Positions 1 through 34,882 of a stretch of DNA of 34,882 nt are shown here, piece after piece (position 1 is the first letter of the stretch; every line of letters starts with the position of its first letter). Below the pieces are notes generated by a model. That model was not told the origin of the DNA and did no database searches. It worked only from the letters and a program-made list of their open reading frames with translations. Made by a program: the position numbers and the translations under genes. The stretch is taken from the NCBI GenBank assembly GCA_016203535.1, contig JACQMO010000010.1:1-34882 (forward strand). Direction: 5' to 3'. The DNA comes from Candidatus Uhrbacteria bacterium (GTDB lineage Bacteria; Patescibacteriota; Patescibacteriia; 2-12-FULL-60-25).

Positions 1-254
1 AAATTTACCAGCTTGCCTTTATCGCCATTTACCTCTTTGCTTTTGGATTCCTTCAAAATCGGAAACGGCTTGCCCGCCATTTCGTTCGGGAACATCTCAT
101 TGGGCGTGCGAGCGTCAGGATTGATGAGAATATCAATTTTTTCTTCCGGCAAATCCCTATGCCAAACAAGGCCGTATTTCGTTTCCTTGATACGGCGAAG
201 CTCTTTTATCAGCTCCTCTCTTGACCAGTTGTCGTAGTTTATTTTTCTTGCCAT
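1..254 (-). CDS. Site-specific DNA methyltransferase, N-terminal part (type III Mod-like)
   Basis: This is the first 84 codons of a gene that runs off the left edge of the window. The N-terminus reads MARKINYDNWSREEL, then a KKxKYGLVW-like segment (ETKYGLVWHRDL), then PFPILKESKSKEV. From memory this matches the start of the adenine methyltransferases of type III (Mod) restriction systems, which carry a YGLVW block and an LPVLKEVKSKEI-like block before the catalytic domain. The catalytic DPPY and FxGxG motifs lie outside the window, so activity cannot be judged. An in-frame TGA a short way upstream supports ATG at 254. The surrounding DNA is clearly more AT-rich than the rest of the window, which fits a horizontally acquired restriction-modification locus. 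The family call is fairly secure; the subtype is less so. Confidence 0.7.
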   Translation of the reverse strand, partial: MARKINYDNWSREELIKELRRIKETKYGLVWHRDLPEEKIDILINPDARTPNEMFPNEMAGKPFPILKESKSKEVNGDKGKLVN

Positions 255-8542: not shown

Positions 8543-10618
8543 ATGGTTGAGCAGCAATTCCGCATCGCGGAGATTGAGGTGGCCAAGAGTCCGACCGATG
8601 AAAAAATCATCGGAATTTTTCGATATGAAAGCGCCGGGCAGAAGAAAAAAGGCGCCTCGCTCCTGATCCTCGCGGAGATATCTTCAACGGTGTACGCGTA
8701 CGAACGACTCCTGGATGTGATCAATGAGTCGGCCGAGCAGGCGCGCCACCTGATCGCCGCCGTGGAGACGGATCCGGTCGCCCGGTTTGAAAAGCTGATC
8801 CAGCGGATCAACGAGGCAGTCGCGGGATTCCTCGAAGGCGAGCCGACGCCGCTCTCCTGGAACCGCGTAAACCTGTTCATCATGGAGCTGTCGCAGGACC
8901 ACATCTGCCTCACCGGGCGCGGGCGGCTCATGAATCTGTTCCTGCAGAAACAGGATGACGGGACCTACCGCACCTTCGACCTGTTCGGTTCGCTCGAGCA
9001 GCCGGCCGAAGTGGACCCCAAAAAGCCGTTCGCCGCGCTGATCTGCGGGGACATGAAACCGGGTGACATCCTCATGGCCGGAACGCTCAACCTCGAAAGG
9101 CTCCGGAACGAACTTCGGATCAAGGAACGGCTCACGACGATGCCGCCGGTATCGGCCGCGCTGGACATCAAGCAAGATCTGGAGCAGCACGGGATTCCGG
9201 ATGACTTCGTGGCGGCGATCGTGGCCTGTTGCGCGCTGGAAGTCCCCTCTCCGAAACAGGCGCCGGCGGCGGACGACGTGGAAAAGAGCACCGCCTCGAT
9301 CCAGAAACTCCGCGATGCCGAAAAGGACGCGACCCAACACCTCTCCCCTGTCTTTTCACCGGCGGCGACGGCGTCGGAACAAACGAACGAACGGCGCGTC
9401 ATGGCCGGTTTTTTCGGCCTGCTCGCTTCGCTCCGAGGAACGGTCAAACGGTACCGGTCAAAGGACATCGCGCTCATGGCGAGTCTCCGCGGGATGAACG
9501 CGGGGCACGGGAGCGTGTTCACAAAAAAACACAAGCGGATCCTTCTCGCGGGCGCGGCCGTCCTGCTTGCCGTGGCCGTCGGCGCGGGAATCTGGCGGAA
9601 CAACCAACGGCTCGCGCGGGAAGAGGCGGCGTGGACCGTGACGTACGACCAAGCCCGGGACAACCGCGATCGCGCGGAGTCCGATCTGGTCTATGCCAAC
9701 GACACGCGGGCGAAAAAATACATCGACGCGGCGGAGGGACTTCTGGCCGGATTGGACACGAAAACGCCCCAACGGAATGAAAAGATCGAAGCGCTCAAGA
9801 CGGACCTGGAGCGGCTGAAGGAGCGACTGCGAAAAACCCAGGCCGTCGAACCGGTCGAGCTGACGGCGCTCGCCGGTGCGCCGGACGGAGCGCTGGTCGC
9901 GCCCGTCCTTGCCGCGGGGGTCGGATACGCCGTGGACAACGCGGACAAAACCGTCCTGAAAATCGATACTGCAAACAAGACGACGAAACGCATCCCGCTC
10001 CCGTCCGGCGCGGGAACCGTCATCGCCGGATCGCTCGGCCAAAAATCCGTCGTATTCGCCACGTCGAACGGCGCGATGGTCGCGGTGGACTTGCAAACCG
10101 ATTCGGTGACGACGCTCTCGTCGCAGCCGCGCGCGTCAAGCACGACGGACGTGATCGTCTACGGCGGCCGCGCTTATTCGCTTGACGGGCCGAACGGGCA
10201 GGTCTGGCGCGCCCAGGGAACGGCCGGGGGGTTCGGGAGCGAACAGCCATACATCAAGGCGGCGACCACGGATCTCGCGGGAGCGGTCGGGCTGGCCATC
10301 GACAGCAACGTCTACGTGCTGAAGCCGGATGCCACCGTGGCGCGGTTCCTGTCGGGCGGACAGGAGGCGTTCGGCCTCGTCGCCATCGATCCGCCGCTTC
10401 GCGCGGCGTCCGCGATCTGGACCAACGCAGACGCCACCCGGCTCGCCATTGCGGATCCCGCCGGGAAACGCATCGTGATCTTCAACAAGGACGGGACGCT
10501 CAAGGCACAGCTTACATCAAAGGAATTTACCGGACCGCGCGATCTGGACGGCAACGAGGCGGAAAAGAAATTGCTCGTGATCGACGGAACGCGTCTGCTT
10601 CTTGTTTCTCTTCCTTAG
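8543..10618 (+). CDS. PP2C-like pseudophosphatase / TM / beta-propeller-like membrane protein
   Basis: A 691-aa protein of three parts. Residues about 1-235 resemble a PPM/PP2C phosphatase fold: LLILAEISS stands where ADGMGG is expected, then a GRGRL strand, PGDILMAGT in place of GDxLLLxTDG, and a final DDFVAAIVA. The metal-binding aspartates of the first motifs are missing, so it is probably inactive and may bind rather than dephosphorylate. One membrane segment follows at about 332-351, then a coiled-coil-like stretch (to about 435), then a C-terminal region (about 440-691) with repeated GYAVDN, VYVLKP and RLAIAD blades, as in a beta-propeller. The propeller would lie outside the cell if the N-domain is cytoplasmic. 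A weak AAGGA lies 10 nt before the start. The domain calls are fold-level guesses; the gene itself is certain. Confidence 0.8.
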   Translation: MVEQQFRIAEIEVAKSPTDEKIIGIFRYESAGQKKKGASLLILAEISSTVYAYERLLDVINESAEQARHLIAAVETDPVARFEKLIQRINEAVAGFLEGEPTPLSWNRVNLFIMELSQDHICLTGRGRLMNLFLQKQDDGTYRTFDLFGSLEQPAEVDPKKPFAALICGDMKPGDILMAGTLNLERLRNELRIKERLTTMPPVSAALDIKQDLEQHGIPDDFVAAIVACCALEVPSPKQAPAADDVEKSTASIQKLRDAEKDATQHLSPVFSPAATASEQTNERRVMAGFFGLLASLRGTVKRYRSKDIALMASLRGMNAGHGSVFTKKHKRILLAGAAVLLAVAVGAGIWRNNQRLAREEAAWTVTYDQARDNRDRAESDLVYANDTRAKKYIDAAEGLLAGLDTKTPQRNEKIEALKTDLERLKERLRKTQAVEPVELTALAGAPDGALVAPVLAAGVGYAVDNADKTVLKIDTANKTTKRIPLPSGAGTVIAGSLGQKSVVFATSNGAMVAVDLQTDSVTTLSSQPRASSTTDVIVYGGRAYSLDGPNGQVWRAQGTAGGFGSEQPYIKAATTDLAGAVGLAIDSNVYVLKPDATVARFLSGGQEAFGLVAIDPPLRAASAIWTNADATRLAIADPAGKRIVIFNKDGTLKAQLTSKEFTGPRDLDGNEAEKKLLVIDGTRLLLVSLP

Positions 10619-10639
10619 CAAGCGAAGCGAATAATAAAA

Positions 10640-10721
10640 AAGAACGGGTGACAGGGCGAGCGTCTTCTCGTCTCGACAGCAGTCGGGACGAAAGGCGCGA
10701 GCCCTGGCAGGACCCGTTCTT
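10640..10721. terminator. ACGGGT-family structured element, copy A (rplL terminator)
   Basis: A 10-bp outer stem (10640-10649 with 10712-10721) encloses the conserved internal loop GAC / GGCAGG, then an AGGGC/GCCCT helix, a tandem GA/GA mismatch, a 7-bp helix and a capped hairpin. It begins 6 nt after the rplL stop. On the minus strand the stem is followed by TTCTTTTTTATT, a good intrinsic terminator. It also lies 21 nt after the plus-strand gene, so it may serve both converging genes. Confidence 0.8.
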
Positions 10722-10726
10722 CCTTG

Positions 10727-11131
10727 TTATTTGAGCGTCGCTTTCCCGCCGGCCTCTTCGATCTTCTTCTTCATCTCTTCGGCTTCGGCTTTCGCGACGT
10801 CTTCCTTCACGACTTTCGGCGCGGCATCCACGATATCCTTGGCTTCCTTGAGTCCAAGGCCCGTGATCTCGCGGACGACCTTGATCACGCCGATCTTGTT
10901 GCCCCCTGCTTCCGTGAGCTCCACGGTGAAGGAGGACTTTTCTTCCGCGGCGGCGCCACCCGCAGCGCCACCGGCGGCGGCCATCATGACCGGGGCGGCG
11001 GCGGACACGCCGAACTTCTCTTCAAGGACCTTCACGAGTTCCGCGAGGTCCAGCACGGACAATTTTTCGACCGAGGACACTAGATCTTTGAACTTCTCCG
11101 GCACCTCGACCACCTTCGTTTCATCGCTCAT
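10727..11131 (-). CDS. rplL: 50S ribosomal protein L7/L12
   Basis: L7/L12 forms the flexible stalk that recruits translation GTPases to the ribosome, as dimers bound to the C-terminal helix of L10. The 134-aa sequence has the N-terminal dimerisation domain (to about 45, ending [13 protein letters not shown]), an Ala/Gly-rich hinge (about 45-65) and the conserved C-domain ([19 protein letters not shown], then [16 protein letters not shown]). It lies downstream of rplJ, the universal order, but the two are separated by a structured element (copy B). No Shine-Dalgarno precedes ATG at 11131; the AT-rich stretch just upstream might hold a secondary promoter. Copy A terminates the transcript. Confidence 0.98.
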
Positions 11132-11154: not shown

Positions 11155-11231
11155 TAACGGGTGACGCGGCGAACGTCTTGAGTCATGCGAGCCAGCATGA
11201 CGAAAGACGCGAGCTGTGGCAGGACCCGTTA
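11155..11231. repeat. ACGGGT-family structured element, copy B (rplJ-rplL spacer)
   Basis: An 8-bp outer stem TAACGGGT (11155-11162) / ACCCGTTA (11224-11231) contains the same GAC / GGCAGG loop as copy A and the same CGTCTT helix, while the apical stem differs in sequence but still pairs (GTCATGC/GCATGAC). The last three bases of the 3' arm are the rplJ stop codon. No U-tract follows on the minus strand, so it would be an attenuator or processing site rather than a full terminator. Confidence 0.75.
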
Positions 11232-11726
11232 CACCACAGCGTTTTCTTTCTGTTTTCGGATCGCTTCTACTGCACGGACGAATGCGGAGACCGGGGCGTA
11301 CATGGTGCCGACCACCTGGCCGAGAAGCTCCTTCTTCGACGGCAGCTTGGACAGCGCGACGACCTTCTCCTGCCCGACCGGCGCGCCTTCGAAAATCCCG
11401 CCGACCAGCTGGAGCGGCGTCGTCTTCGCCATGTCTCCAAGGACTTTGGCCGGCGCGATCTCGTCTTCCAGACCGAACGCGACGCCGATCATCCCCGGCA
11501 GGGCCTTGGCGTCAATCTCGACGCCCGCGTCTTTCGCGGCCTTCGACAGAAGCGTTTTCTTCGTGACCACGTAGTCGACGTTCGCTTCGCGCATCTTCTT
11601 GCGCAACTCGTCGGCTTTCGCCACCTTCAGTCCCTGATAGTTGGCGAACACGACGGATTTCGCCTTCTTGAACTCCCGCGTGAGGAGCTCGATCGTATTC
11701 AATTTCTGTTCACGTGTTTTTGGCAT
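11229..11726 (-). CDS. rplJ: 50S ribosomal protein L10
   Basis: L10 anchors the L7/L12 dimers to 23S rRNA and autoregulates its own operon by binding the leader. The 165-aa protein has the rRNA-binding N-domain (KTREQKLNTIELLTREFKKA, VVFANYQGL, VVTKKTLLSKAA) and the C-terminal helix (about 135-165, VVGTMYAPVSAFVRAVEAIR) that carries L7/L12. The start at MPKTREQK fits the family. No Shine-Dalgarno is visible before it. An L10 leader and a good promoter lie upstream, and copy B of the structured element begins at its stop codon. Confidence 0.98.
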   Translation of the reverse strand: MPKTREQKLNTIELLTREFKKAKSVVFANYQGLKVAKADELRKKMREANVDYVVTKKTLLSKAAKDAGVEIDAKALPGMIGVAFGLEDEIAPAKVLGDMAKTTPLQLVGGIFEGAPVGQEKVVALSKLPSKKELLGQVVGTMYAPVSAFVRAVEAIRKQKENAVV

Positions 11727-11953: not shown

Positions 11954-12760
11954 ATGAACAACACGTTTTCCCTCCTGGCGCTTCTGGCGATTGTCGGAGC
12001 CGGATGCCCGCTCGCCCCGCCGCCGTCCGTCCCTCCGAGACCGCCGACAACCACGCCGCCCGTGGCCCCTCCGTCCGCCGAGGGTGATACCGCGGCCGTG
12101 GCGCTCGAAGGCAAAAATGCGATCGCGCTCGATGAAGACCAGAAGGTCGGCGACAAGATCACCGTTTCAAGCGTCATGCTGGAAAAGCCGGGATACGTCG
12201 TCGTCCACGGTGAGACGAACGGAGGGCCCGGCGCCATCCTTGCGAACAGCGTTCTCCTGCCAGCCGGCGAATCCGTGAACGTCGAGGTGAAAACCGTGGT
12301 GAAGCCGAACATCTATTACTGGGCGATGCTCCATGCGGACAACGGCGACGGCGCGTACAATTCGGCCGATGACGCGCCGATCAAGGACGGACAAGGCAAC
12401 ATCGTCATGATGCGTTTCGAAGGGGCCGAAGCCGCCGAGGTGATGGAAAAGAAAGAGGATGAAACAACCGAGGTCAAGGTTGACGTCGAGGTGAAGATGG
12501 AAGCCAAGACCGTTGCGGCGGCGATCCAGAACTTTTCCTTCGGACCTGCGACCATCACGGTGAAAAAAGGCGACAAGGTGACGTTCACGAACAAGGATGG
12601 CGTGGGCCACTCCGCAACGGCTGACGGCGGCGCGTTCGATACGGGGATCATCTCATCGAACCAATCCGCAACCGTGGACACGTCCTCGCTCGCGCCGGGG
12701 AGCTACCCGTTCCATTGCACCCCGCATCCGAACATGAAGGGGACGATCGTCGTACAGTAG
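11954..12760 (+). CDS. Cupredoxin (plastocyanin-like) lipoprotein with DUF7282-like domain
   Basis: A 268-aa exported lipoprotein: signal peptide with lipobox VGAGC (Cys18), then a Pro/Thr-rich linker. Residues about 60-165 resemble the DUF7282 domain of archaeal and CPR surface proteins (GYVVVHGETNGGPGAILANS). A cupredoxin domain follows (about 180-268) with the blue-copper ligands in the right order: His219 in GVGHSAT, and Cys255, His258, Met261 in HCTPHPNM. It should bind one copper at the cell surface and carry electrons or store copper; no partner oxidase is visible nearby. I chose ATG at 11954 rather than 11915 because it gives a clean signal peptide. Confidence 0.88.
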   Translation: MNNTFSLLALLAIVGAGCPLAPPPSVPPRPPTTTPPVAPPSAEGDTAAVALEGKNAIALDEDQKVGDKITVSSVMLEKPGYVVVHGETNGGPGAILANSVLLPAGESVNVEVKTVVKPNIYYWAMLHADNGDGAYNSADDAPIKDGQGNIVMMRFEGAEAAEVMEKKEDETTEVKVDVEVKMEAKTVAAAIQNFSFGPATITVKKGDKVTFTNKDGVGHSATADGGAFDTGIISSNQSATVDTSSLAPGSYPFHCTPHPNMKGTIVVQ

Positions 12761-12768
12761 AAAACTGT

Positions 12769-12860
12769 AAACGCCTGCGGTGCATGCCGGATGAACAGTA
12801 AGACTTGGCCTAGCGGCCCGGAGCGCTGTTCAGGAGGTATGTGCCGCAGGCGTTTTTTTT
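12769..12860. terminator. Bidirectional terminator with a large structured loop
   Basis: A 17-bp stem (12769-12785 with 12839-12855, two G-U pairs on the plus strand) is followed by eight T residues that overlap the xseB stop. The loop is itself structured: GAACAG/CTGTTC (12793-12798, 12826-12831) and GGCC/GGCC inside. It lies between the converging cupredoxin gene and xseB. The ~53-nt folded loop is much larger than in an ordinary terminator. Confidence 0.75.
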
Positions 12861-18123: not shown

Positions 18124-18158
18124 CGCAACGGGTGACACGGAACGGGGGACCCGTTGCG
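18124..18158 (-). terminator. ACGGGT-family element, short copy E (metK terminator)
   Basis: A 10-bp stem CGCAACGGGT (18124-18133) / ACCCGTTGCG (18149-18158) starts 3 nt after the metK stop; on the minus strand it is followed by TTTTTGTTT. The plus-strand sequence ACGGGTGACACGGAACGGGG is nearly identical to the 5' part of copies C and D, so this looks like a shortened form of the same element working as an intrinsic terminator. Confidence 0.85.
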
Positions 18159-19213: not shown

Positions 19214-21310
19214 TTATCGTGGAGGGAGTTTTTTTACCGACATCGTCGACTTGAAAACCGTGGTCGTGCTTGTCCGCTCTCGTGGTGTGCTGCCGTACCT
19301 ATCCACGCGAATCGACTCTTCCTGATAAAAACTGTCTCCATCTCCGCTCCAGCGGGATTCCCGTCGCGCGGGCATTCCGCCGCCGAACCCTTCTCGGATT
19401 TCCATCCGCTCCATGAGATGCGGCGGCAACTCCTGCACGAAAAGCGACGGCGGCATGAAGGATAATCCGTCGCCGGCGCGCGTAGCCGAGTAGGTCAAAT
19501 ACAGCCGCCGACGCGCGCGGGTCACGGCCACGTAAAATAACCGCCGCTCTTCTTCCATCTGGCTTTCGTCGTCTTCGGCATAGCGGCTGGGAAAACAACC
19601 GTCCATGAGATGCATGATGAACACCGTGTCCCATTCGAGTCCCTTGGCCTGATGCACGGTCGAGAGGACCATTTTCTCATCGGTGGGAGCTCCGCCGGCC
19701 GCAGCCCGCCCGACCGCATCGTCGAAGAGCGCGACCTCGCCCAAAAATGCGTCCGCGTCCTGATAGCCCTCGGCGAACATAGCCAGTTGTTCGAGGTCGT
19801 CCAGACGATCGCGCCAGTCCGGATATTCGTGCTCGAGATACGCCGCATACGCCGAACCGGCGATGGCACGAACCATTTTTGCCGGCCCGTTCTCGGCACG
19901 CGCCGCGCGGAGCGTCGCGAGACAACTCTGCCATCCCTCGCGGCATCGTTCCGAAACGCCGGCGACGAACCCATCCTCCATCACATCATCAAGCGCCTCG
20001 GCCGTGCGCGCCTGCGCGATGAGACGCGACGCCGTGGCCGGTCCGATCCCCTGTTGCAAATTCAGGAGACGTAACCACGCCGGCTCGTCCTTCACGTTCT
20101 GAATGATGCGCAGGCACGCGAGCGTGTCCTTGATGTGCGCCCGGCCGAAGAAACGGACGCCGCCGCGGTAATCATACGGGATGTCCCGTTTCACGAGTTC
20201 CATTTCAAGCAGATGCGAATGCGCGGATGAACGGAACAGCACGGCCATGCCGCGCAACGCCGCTCCTTCGGAACGCAATTTCAAAATCTTGTCCGCGATG
20301 AAGCGCGCCTCCTGATGCGCGGTGCCGAGCGGAACGAGCACGGGCTTCGATCCCCGCGCCGCGATCCCGATGAGTTCCTTCTGGAACTGCTCCACGTTCT
20401 GGCGCAGGGAGTCGTTCGCAACATCCAGGATCTCGGGGGTTGAACGGTAATTGGTGAGCAGTTTGAACATCTTGGCGTCCGGCCATTCCTTCGGGAAACG
20501 CAAAATATTCTGAATGTCGGCGCCGCGAAACGCGTAAATGGATTGCGCGTCATCGCCCACGACGAGCGCGTTGCCGTGCCCTTCGGCGAGGCCGCGGACG
20601 ATCCGCGCCTGGAGCGCGTTCGTATCCTGATATTCGTCGACGAGGATGTGCTGAAATTTTTCTCGGAGTGCCATACCGATCTCCGGATGCGCGAGAAGCA
20701 GAAGCCAGTTGTGAAGCAGATCGTCGAAATCCATCGCCTGGGCCGCGCGTTTCCGCTCCGCGTAGAGACGCGCGAGTTCCTCGATTTCGGACGAGAGCGG
20801 CTCATGCTGGGGATACCGCTCGCCGAGCACGTCGGGAATGTTCCGGAGCGTGTTGCGCGTAAAGGAAATGATGTCCTGAAGCACGGCCGGCGACGGAAAG
20901 CGGCGGCTGGTCACGTCGTATTTCGCCTCTTTCATCACGGCCTTCATGAGCAAACGGCTGTCTTCTTGATCCAGGATGGTGAACGTCGGCGCATAGCCCG
21001 CGGATGACGCGGCCCTTCGGAGAATGCGGTGCGCGATGGAATGGAACGTCCCGGCCCACACGCCGCCCGCGTCTCCGCCGAGGAGCGCGCCCACGCGTTC
21101 GCGCATCTCGCGCGCCGCCTTGATGGTGAAAGTGAGGAGCAGGATGGACGACGGATCCTCGCCGCGCTCGATGAGATGCGCCACGCGATACATGATGGTG
21201 CGCGTCTTGCCGGAACCGGCGCCCGCTAAAACCAGGCACGGACCGTCGCCTTGCAGGACTACGTCGAGCTGTTCCTGGTTCAGCTCGCGGGTGTAATCGA
21301 TCTGTCGCAT
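19214..21310 (-). CDS. uvrD: UvrD/PcrA-type superfamily 1 DNA helicase
   Basis: A 698-aa 3'-5' DNA helicase acting in nucleotide-excision and mismatch repair and in clearing RecA or stalled polymerase from DNA. All SF1A motifs are visible: Q-motif ELNQEQLDVV, Walker A GAGSGKTR (30-37), the Ia region LLLTFTIKAAREM, Walker B VDEYQDTN, motif III GDDAQSIYAFRGA, motif IV NYRST, motif V VHQAKGLEWDTVFI, motif VI FYVAVTRAR. I chose ATG at 21310 (MRQIDYTRELN), the usual family start; upstream codons fall in the promoter and structured element C. No Shine-Dalgarno; the promoter abuts the start, so the mRNA is probably leaderless. The C-terminus is short beyond motif VI, as in many PcrA-like proteins. 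Confidence 0.95.
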   Translation of the reverse strand: MRQIDYTRELNQEQLDVVLQGDGPCLVLAGAGSGKTRTIMYRVAHLIERGEDPSSILLLTFTIKAAREMRERVGALLGGDAGGVWAGTFHSIAHRILRRAASSAGYAPTFTILDQEDSRLLMKAVMKEAKYDVTSRRFPSPAVLQDIISFTRNTLRNIPDVLGERYPQHEPLSSEIEELARLYAERKRAAQAMDFDDLLHNWLLLLAHPEIGMALREKFQHILVDEYQDTNALQARIVRGLAEGHGNALVVGDDAQSIYAFRGADIQNILRFPKEWPDAKMFKLLTNYRSTPEILDVANDSLRQNVEQFQKELIGIAARGSKPVLVPLGTAHQEARFIADKILKLRSEGAALRGMAVLFRSSAHSHLLEMELVKRDIPYDYRGGVRFFGRAHIKDTLACLRIIQNVKDEPAWLRLLNLQQGIGPATASRLIAQARTAEALDDVMEDGFVAGVSERCREGWQSCLATLRAARAENGPAKMVRAIAGSAYAAYLEHEYPDWRDRLDDLEQLAMFAEGYQDADAFLGEVALFDDAVGRAAAGGAPTDEKMVLSTVHQAKGLEWDTVFIMHLMDGCFPSRYAEDDESQMEEERRLFYVAVTRARRRLYLTYSATRAGDGLSFMPPSLFVQELPPHLMERMEIREGFGGGMPARRESRWSGDGDSFYQEESIRVDRYGSTPRERTSTTTVFKSTMSVKKLPPR

Positions 21311-21317
21311 GGCGGAA

Positions 21318-21346
21318 AGGTTACACGAGATGTTGGCGGGAACCAA
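21318..21346 (-). promoter_or_regulatory. Promoter of uvrD, near leaderless
   Basis: TTGGTT (21341-21346) and TAACCT (21318-21323) with a 17-nt spacer on the minus strand. Only 7 nt separate the -10 box from ATG at 21310. Confidence 0.5.
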
Positions 21347-21360
21347 CCGCAATGTCCTCC

Positions 21361-21445
21361 CACGGGTCCTGCCGCGGCCCACCCCCACGGTACTCGATCT
21401 GCTGATCTGCGTGCCGTGGGGGTCCCCCGTTCCGCGTCACCCGTG
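21361..21445. repeat. ACGGGT-family structured element, copy C
   Basis: An outer stem CACGGGT (21361-21367) / ACCCGTG (21439-21445), the conserved CCTGCC / GTC internal loop (complement of GGCAGG / GAC), a GCGG/CCGC helix and a strong 9-bp inner stem CCCCCACGG/CCGTGGGGG. It is inverted relative to copies A, B, D and E. Bases 21375-21454 are the exact reverse complement of 34803-34882. Confidence 0.85.
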
Positions 21446-21489
21446 CTGACGCATATTGTCATATCGACCTGCGAAAAAAATAACAAAAA

Positions 21490-31347: not shown

Positions 31348-31394
31348 CCCGCCAGCAACAAACCCCGCTCAAGGCGGGGCTTATTGCTGGCGGG
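31348..31394 (-). terminator. Nested hairpin at the 3' end of tRNA-Asp
   Basis: An inner stem CCCCGC/GCGGGG (31363-31368, 31374-31379) followed on the minus strand by TTTGTT is a terminator for the tRNA transcript. It sits inside an outer perfect 11-bp stem, 31348-31358 with 31384-31394, whose 5' arm on the minus strand is the tRNA 3' end including CCA. Confidence 0.7.
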
Positions 31395-31465
31395 TGCGAA
31401 GGGATTCGAACCCTCGATCTTCTCCGTGACAGGGAGACGTGTTAACCGGGCTACACCACGCACCC
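31388..31465 (-). tRNA. tRNA-Asp (GTC)
   Basis: A full cloverleaf: acceptor GGGTGCG/CGCACCC, D stem GTGT/ACAC, anticodon stem TCTCC/GGAGA around the 7-nt loop CTGTCAC (anticodon GTC), T arm GAGGG-TTCGAAT-CCCTT. The discriminator is G73, the Asp identity base, and the 3' CCA is encoded (31388-31390). It lies downstream of the tRNA-like copy. Confidence 0.95.
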
Positions 31466-31491
31466 AGGCGTGAGTTCTTCTTTTCTCGTTG

Positions 31492-31567
31492 AGCGTGCGA
31501 AGGGATTCGAACCCTCGATCTCCCCGATGGCCATCGGGGCGTGTTAACCGGGCTACACCACGCACCC
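31492..31567 (-). tRNA. tRNA-like copy of tRNA-Asp with palindromic 8-nt-loop anticodon arm
   Basis: Identical to the neighbouring tRNA-Asp in the 5' acceptor strand, D arm, variable loop and T arm, but the anticodon arm is replaced by an 18-nt palindrome: stem CCCCG/CGGGG with the 8-nt loop ATGGCCAT. After U33 the next bases are GGCC, so the anticodon could be GGC (Ala), GCC (Gly) or a four-base GGCC. The 3' acceptor strand has one mismatch (CGCACGC), the discriminator is T, and no CCA is encoded. It may be a pseudogene or a non-canonical tRNA. Confidence 0.7.
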
Positions 31568-34802: not shown

Positions 34803-34882
34803 ATGCGTCAGCACGGGTGACGCGGAACGGGGGACCCCCACGGCACGCAGATCAGCAGATCGAGTACCGTGGGGGTGGGCCG
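34803..34882. repeat. ACGGGT-family structured element, copy D (cut by window end)
   Basis: The first 80 bases of a further copy: GCACGGGT, the loop GAC, GCGG, the inner stem CCCCCACGG/CCGTGGGGG and part of the 3' side. It is the exact reverse complement of 21375-21454. The closing GGCAGGACCCGT side lies beyond the window. It is upstream of htrA. Confidence 0.85.

Follow-up and report, generated by a model that had tools for sequence, protein, structure and literature searches.

Does the hairpin that lies between rplJ and rplL in a Candidatus Uhrbacteria genome belong to these two ribosomal protein genes, as a regulator of their expression, or is it one copy of something more widely scattered? 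The window (the whole stretch of DNA analysed, 34,882 nt of contig JACQMO010000010.1) holds the following features.

10636–10641, − strand (transcribed strand; A6 on +): T6 tract, a terminator-like tail directly after copy A
10640–10721, + strand: copy A, type 1, after rplL (core 10644–10717; outer stem extended by AAGA/TCTT)
10727–11131, − strand: rplL, ribosomal protein L7/L12 (Pfam PF00542, Ribosomal_L12, and PF16320)
11155–11231, + strand, the consensus strand: copy B, type 1, in the rplJ–rplL spacer (core 11157–11229, ACGGGT...ACCCGT; identified by folding, own-genome copies and a model match)
11229–11726, − strand: rplJ, ribosomal protein L10 (Pfam PF00466, Ribosomal_L10, E 2.4e-21), its stop codon inside the outer stem of copy B
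18128–18154, + strand: shortened derivative keeping the outer stem, ACGGGTGAC...GGACCCGT
21362–21444, − strand: type 2 copy upstream of a UvrD-like helicase gene (exact pattern; Pfam UvrD on ORF 19214–21388)
34813–34882, + strand: type 2 copy that runs off the contig end

The hairpin between rplJ and rplL

Of the 103 nt that run from the rplJ stop to the ATG of rplL, copy B, a 77-nt palindrome, takes up the greater part, and the rplJ stop (TTA on the + strand, 11229–11231) is part of its outer stem; on both points the first-pass annotation was accurate. The structured element that it placed there is real and folds better than shuffled sequence on either strand. Over 91 nt, the + strand reaches −43.2 kcal/mol (z −5.95, equalled by 0 of 200 shuffles) and the transcribed − strand −36.7 kcal/mol (z −3.69, equalled by 2 of 200). 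The consensus strand of copy B runs antisense to the rplJ–rplL operon. On the − strand the outer stem forms with a probability of 0.94–1.0 when 5-nt flanks are included and of 0.44–0.47 with flanks of 100/60 nt, as it competes with other pairings once the transcript context is lengthened.

The U-run that follows the stem of an intrinsic terminator is missing at copy B: on the − strand GTTAATTACGAAAATAATA comes next, without five consecutive T, and neither an A5+ nor a T5+ run flanks the element. As an insertion, copy B would have brought no termination signal with it, and transcription presumably reads through. The rplJ product has 165 aa, against 166 aa in a same-genus genome, and is thus full length, so that the insertion of copy B left rplJ untruncated.

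The first-pass annotation had gone on to propose a processing, re-initiation or transcript-stability role at this junction, and had offered unstructured spacers in related genomes as what would speak against it. The rplJ–rplL loci compared came from 30 of 53 genomes with rplL (own genome included), i.e. from 29 relatives, and presence of the element was judged by eye from the sequence letters. An element of the copy B family occurs in the rplJ–rplL spacer of none of the 29 relatives. The spacer measures 64 nt or less in 22 of them, the rplL start being uncertain in two (L197, L210), and the short spacers have mostly near-zero folding energy where this was computed. Many other, unrelated places carry the element too, genes among them. 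A junction-specific role for copy B is therefore not supported; what finds support in the annotation is the structured element, the stop codon in its outer stem and the view that copy A closes the operon. In one relative (L201) the spacer holds another palindromic repeat.

A dispersed family of paired inner stems and fixed ends

With copy B as the query, a DNA search of the 811-kb own genome found copies on many contigs, the best of them 87 % alike; copy A is only 76 % alike, so copies A and B do not derive from a recent local duplication. The ends of the family are ACGGGTGAC...GGCAGGACCCGT, and both copies are members. The pattern GGGTGAC-42..72-GGCAGGACCC has 14 matches in the own genome and none for a reversed control. 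Between the fixed ends lie an inner stem (P2) specific to each copy and a variable terminal hairpin (P3), the whole unit measuring approximately 60–95 nt. Two interior types can be told apart: type 1, to which copies A and B belong, and type 2, comprising 21362–21444 and the copy at the contig end. By a covariance model built from 14 type 1 copies, the full type 1 copies of the own genome number 11, of which 10 were model sequences and one, C28:24149, is new; the relative G012 has 6 (3 in the model), and G007 and G030 have one each. Copy B matches with E 3.2e-16, a value to be read with copy B itself among the 14 model-building sequences.

The last 80 nt of the window (34803–34882) are the reverse complement of 21375–21454. 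As the contig thus stops inside a type 2 copy that shares these 80 nt exactly with another, the assembly probably broke at this repeat. In the shortened derivative at 18128–18154, the GGACCC near the 3′ end could stem from a deletion in a type 2 copy, between its two GGACCC words. Truncated copies are also present at two further loci (L005, L013).

Elsewhere in the window, on the − strand at 31388–31567, a tRNA-Asp lies beside a second tRNA whose anticodon ARAGORN leaves unsettled (ggcc, expanded loop); the two share identical stretches of 27 and 29 nt.

Changes within the stems are strongly coordinated. In the alignment of 14 copies, compensatory change is seen at 17 of 26 pairs and 93.9 % of cells are paired, with a covariation score of 0.544 compared with 0.208 when shuffled and at most 0.142 with partners slid, values that are favoured by the structure having been derived from the same alignment. 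An alignment-free comparison, anchored on the end motifs, used 160 distinct copies from the own genome, the relatives and the wide-scan loci (the matches listed). Here P2 positions 1–6 pair in 69–96 % of copies against 38–71 % in shuffled sets, none of 1000 shuffles reaching the observed level, even as 102 different P2 hexamers occur among the 160 copies. Pairing extends beyond the core, to P0 positions 3–5. These copies were picked by exact end motifs, so conservation of the motifs is not evidence by itself. In many carrier-locus copies the terminal hairpin opens with a C-run and is preceded by a run of 3–5 G that is just as long (GGGGGACCCCC...GGGGG); with the two lengths equal, the C-run has two possible G-run partners.

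Orthologous sites occupied in two species give a view of how the stems change. In 28 such pairs (31 sites, hence not independent) both species carry the element in the same orientation, between flanks that are 67–83 % identical (94 % in one pair). In 21 of the 28, each arm of P2 has changed at no fewer than two of five positions while at least four of the five still pair; the type of terminal hairpin often differs too. Such change on both arms would reflect either conversion between copies, or re-insertion, or arm-to-arm copying.

The family is patchily distributed. The pattern occurs in 8 of 57 genomes, own included (control 0), and a stricter version in 5 of 379 genomes of the phylum. A wide scan of named genome contigs returned at least 116 stretches with the pattern; among the matches listed (80 titles) most are from Saccharibacteria, with others from Omnitrophota, Gottesman-, Roizman-, Doudna-, Uhr- and Nomurabacteria, and also from Elusimicrobia, Nitrospirae, Delta- and Gammaproteobacteria and Bacillota. 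Nearly all of these are metagenome-assembled genomes, so that some host labels may be wrong. Two Streptomyces matches (L053, L095) look like chance, and were retained in the 160-copy pairing, in-ORF and orthologous-site sets. Each of 19 named carrier genomes has 1–17 pattern matches (control 0). The exact pattern had no match in the viral collection (viral_contigs), and carriage by viruses was accordingly set aside. The sites compared included no two close strains that form an exact empty/occupied pair.

Many copies lie inside genes. Among the matches listed (124 exact copies), 51 fall within ORFs of at least 250 aa, 24 of them sense and 27 antisense, and occupy five of the six possible frames; at this limit the count may still hold some spurious antisense ORFs, and a looser limit of 70 aa gave a figure inflated by spurious ORFs (77 of 150). 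By Pfam assignment, an ORF for topoisomerase I contains three copies, two of them inside one domain match, and an ORF for a class I tRNA synthetase likewise three, two inside the match and the third with two end-motif mismatches. ORFs for CysRS, TGT and QueA have one copy each, that of TGT inside the domain match. Other insert-bearing genes, read from their protein letters, are presumably MiaA, TypA, TruB and PrmC.

For the TGT gene, 30 loci from 49 genomes with TGT were taken and 2 without one half dropped. Among the 28 genomes compared, one has the full element (G072), one an outer-stem remnant (L236) and 23 neither; three loci (L223–L225) carry other inserts at the same loop. In L223 and L225 this is a different GC-rich palindromic insert, in frame, which indicates that the loop accepts more than one repeat family. 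At another locus (L280, 2037–4303 of G063 C24), three small ORFs lie near one another with an element near each predicted N-terminus, and two of the three have an N-terminal methylation (pilin-like) motif.

Copy A and the end of the operon

Copy A sits between rplL and a convergent + strand ORF that ends at 10618. Its fold (z −7.80 on the + strand, −6.38 on the − strand) beats that of copy B, and its outer stem stays at a probability of 1.0 in longer context, the last counted pair having 0.69. Downstream of rplL the − strand presents what an intrinsic terminator requires, a G+C-rich stem and at once a T6 tract. A simple terminator scan, whose model restricts the loop to 3–8 nt, did not flag copy A.

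After rplL, relatives mostly show an ordinary short stem and T-run, and this is also so in the same-genus genome G001 (L197). In one of the 29 relatives, G012, which belongs to another genus, a type 1 element stands where the usual terminator would be, and T6 comes after it on the rplL strand. When the loci of the 11 own and 8 relatives' type 1 copies are compared, the rplL site is the only one in common. These 19 copies (own genome, G012, G007 and G030) have an A5+ run within 18 nt on the 5′ side in 9 cases and a T5+ run on the 3′ side in 5, where the background is 0.022 for each. Given the T6 tract, the counterpart in G012 and the A-runs flanking 9 of the 19 type 1 copies, copy A looks like a co-opted terminator of rplL, and the first-pass view that it ends the operon would hold if termination proceeds as this anatomy suggests.

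Other palindromic repeats follow rplL in L205 and L210. The one in L205 starts TGTCATTGCGAGGAG and resembles TGTC/CGTC-tagged REPs. A second palindromic element within the window, at 12769–12855, has 30-nt arms that are 80 % complementary, followed by a T-run, and lies after a + strand gene ending at 12760. One 92 % copy and two partial copies of it are present on other contigs of the own genome. It is a dispersed repeat different from the family of copies A and B, and likewise terminator-like.

Origin of the family and its relation to known repeats

The reading that we hold with good confidence is that of a dispersed palindromic family resembling the Rickettsia palindromic elements (RPE), of which copy B is an insertion and copy A a replacement of the rplL terminator. 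The family would spread or turn over in the manner of RPE, its elements landing between genes or, with the reading frame kept, in gene loops that tolerate them. At the rplJ–rplL junction copy B would be one such insertion, with no conserved role there, and copy A, with T6 on the rplL strand, would have replaced the intrinsic terminator of rplL. As copy B is one copy of a scattered repeat also found inside essential genes, the hairpin at rplJ–rplL is probably no special switch for these ribosomal genes, and it presumably has no effect there; it might still influence rplL expression in the source species. Mobility is what this reading presumes, and some observations weigh against it: no mobilising enzyme was identified (Y1 transposases were searched), close strains gave no exact empty/occupied pair, and orthologous sites in the same orientation in several species could mean long retention under selection.

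That copy B is instead a cis-acting RNA selected at this position, which processes or stabilises the rplJ–rplL transcript or sets rplL output in a manner coupled to rplJ translation, would agree with the stable fold of the transcribed strand, the stop codon in the outer stem, and the intact end motif and paired stems of copy B. Set against the element-free and mostly short, unstructured spacers of all 29 relatives, an antisense consensus strand, an outer stem only partly formed in longer context and the many unrelated sites with the same element, we regard it as very improbable. Selection could also act on the family as a whole, were it a functional RNA (a regulatory or small-RNA class) retained at each site and not mobile, its covariation arising from selection on the RNA. 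The strong compensatory change, the fixed internal-loop motif, the spread over many phyla, and the occupation of the same orthologous positions in several species are all compatible with this, as is the strand preference, the GGGTGAC strand folding better in 132 of 160 copies. Yet copies inside ORFs are about equally sense and antisense and use five of six frames, occurrence is patchy, and truncated and stem-only derivatives exist. Nor is there a clear overall bias of G–T over A–C mismatches, which were compared as a guide to the acting strand (11 to 2 in P2, 8 to 7 in P0, 42 to 45 over all single mismatches). This alternative too is unlikely. At the curated scores of Rfam 15 no known RNA family matches: the whole window gave only tRNAs, 17 carrier loci gave RNase P and tRNA and nothing else, and the 900 nt around A and B gave at best a weak match to a plant microRNA family, which scored 31.4 bits where the cut-off is 150.

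Movement by RAYT (Y1, IS200/IS605-like) transposases, the elements then being REPs, would account for short palindromes in many copies per genome, both intergenic and intragenic, and 6 of the 19 named carrier genomes do have Y1_Tnp genes. The other 13 do not, however, the own genome (88 % complete) has no Y1_Tnp match, and over 57 genomes Y1_Tnp is present in 2 of 8 carriers against 23 of 49 non-carriers. With no association between Y1 transposases and carriers, and with the GTAG tag missing at the ends, a mobiliser of this kind was rejected and seems the remotest of these explanations. A composite unit, two elements around a gene, was likewise dismissed: seven clustered regions revealed no transposon with shared cargo, and ten ORFs from them are, by Pfam, housekeeping genes, pilin-like or without a match. 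A further possibility, less likely than not, is that these are selfish hairpins that cross phyla independently of RAYT, with the inner stem of each copy rewritten time and again, both arms together, while the ends and the internal-loop motif stay fixed. If this were true, hairpin-templated copying or conversion would both spread and edit the elements, and some copies would have been recruited as terminators.

On the RPE-like reading, the repeat family is of more interest than the rplJ–rplL junction. Behaviour of the RPE kind would then extend to Patescibacteria, Saccharibacteria above all, to Omnitrophota and to other groups, many of them with very small genomes. The family offers natural experiments in the tolerance of protein loops, in repeat-derived terminators and in hairpin change on both arms. 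A structured spacer in such genomes also calls for caution before it is named an operon-specific regulator.

Among known systems, intrinsic terminators share with copy A the G+C-rich stem directly before T6, just after rplL, but differ in that the family has a long stem with conserved internal loops, and copy B and many other copies are without a U-run. SPRITE of S. pneumoniae, a name given in PMC10969869, is the terminator-like repeat set beside them in this comparison. MITEs, as described in PMC10969869 and PMC2229807, are similarly small non-coding repeats with paired ends and many copies. Here no related transposon was found, nor a target duplication at the sites compared, which included no exact empty/occupied pair, and the interior changes in a paired manner. 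CGTC-tagged REPs are described in PMC3733652 as 20–40 bp long, with an unpaired CGTC (or TGTC/CCTC) end tag, an 8–9 bp stem that starts with complementary A/T, and a loop of 4–5. Together with the GTAG-tagged REPs of the same source they resemble the family as dispersed palindromes near gene 3′ ends, some within genes that include those for tRNA synthetases and DNA synthesis or repair, and the CGTC type is, in that text, also without a known transposase. They are short and have an unpaired tag, whereas the present elements are two to three times longer (approximately 60–95 nt), with paired ends (ACGGGT/ACCCGT) and several stems. No GTAG stands beside the stem in the copies inspected, and the Y1 tyrosine transposase that goes with the GTAG-REP/RAYT system was found neither in the own genome nor in 13 of the 19 named carriers.

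RPE come closest. In passages of PMC10969869, PMC2229807 and PMC3733652 they are palindromic, form long stem-loops, measure 105–150 bp, and lie intergenically as well as in frame in unrelated conserved genes; their mobilising enzyme is given as unknown, several families may share one genome, and structured repeats in essential genes are attributed mainly to Rickettsia and to some other groups. The copies described here likewise lie between genes and, in frame, within conserved genes that are unrelated to one another. They differ from RPE, which were compared by description only, in size and apparently in sequence, in their hosts (Patescibacteria, Omnitrophota and others), and in an inner stem that varies from copy to copy yet stays paired. 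Literature searches for the motif or for such repeats in these phyla brought up no description of it. The family thus appears to work like RPE, beside which it is set by their descriptions and not by sequence homology, and is best read as a new, RPE-like member of the dispersed palindromic repeats.
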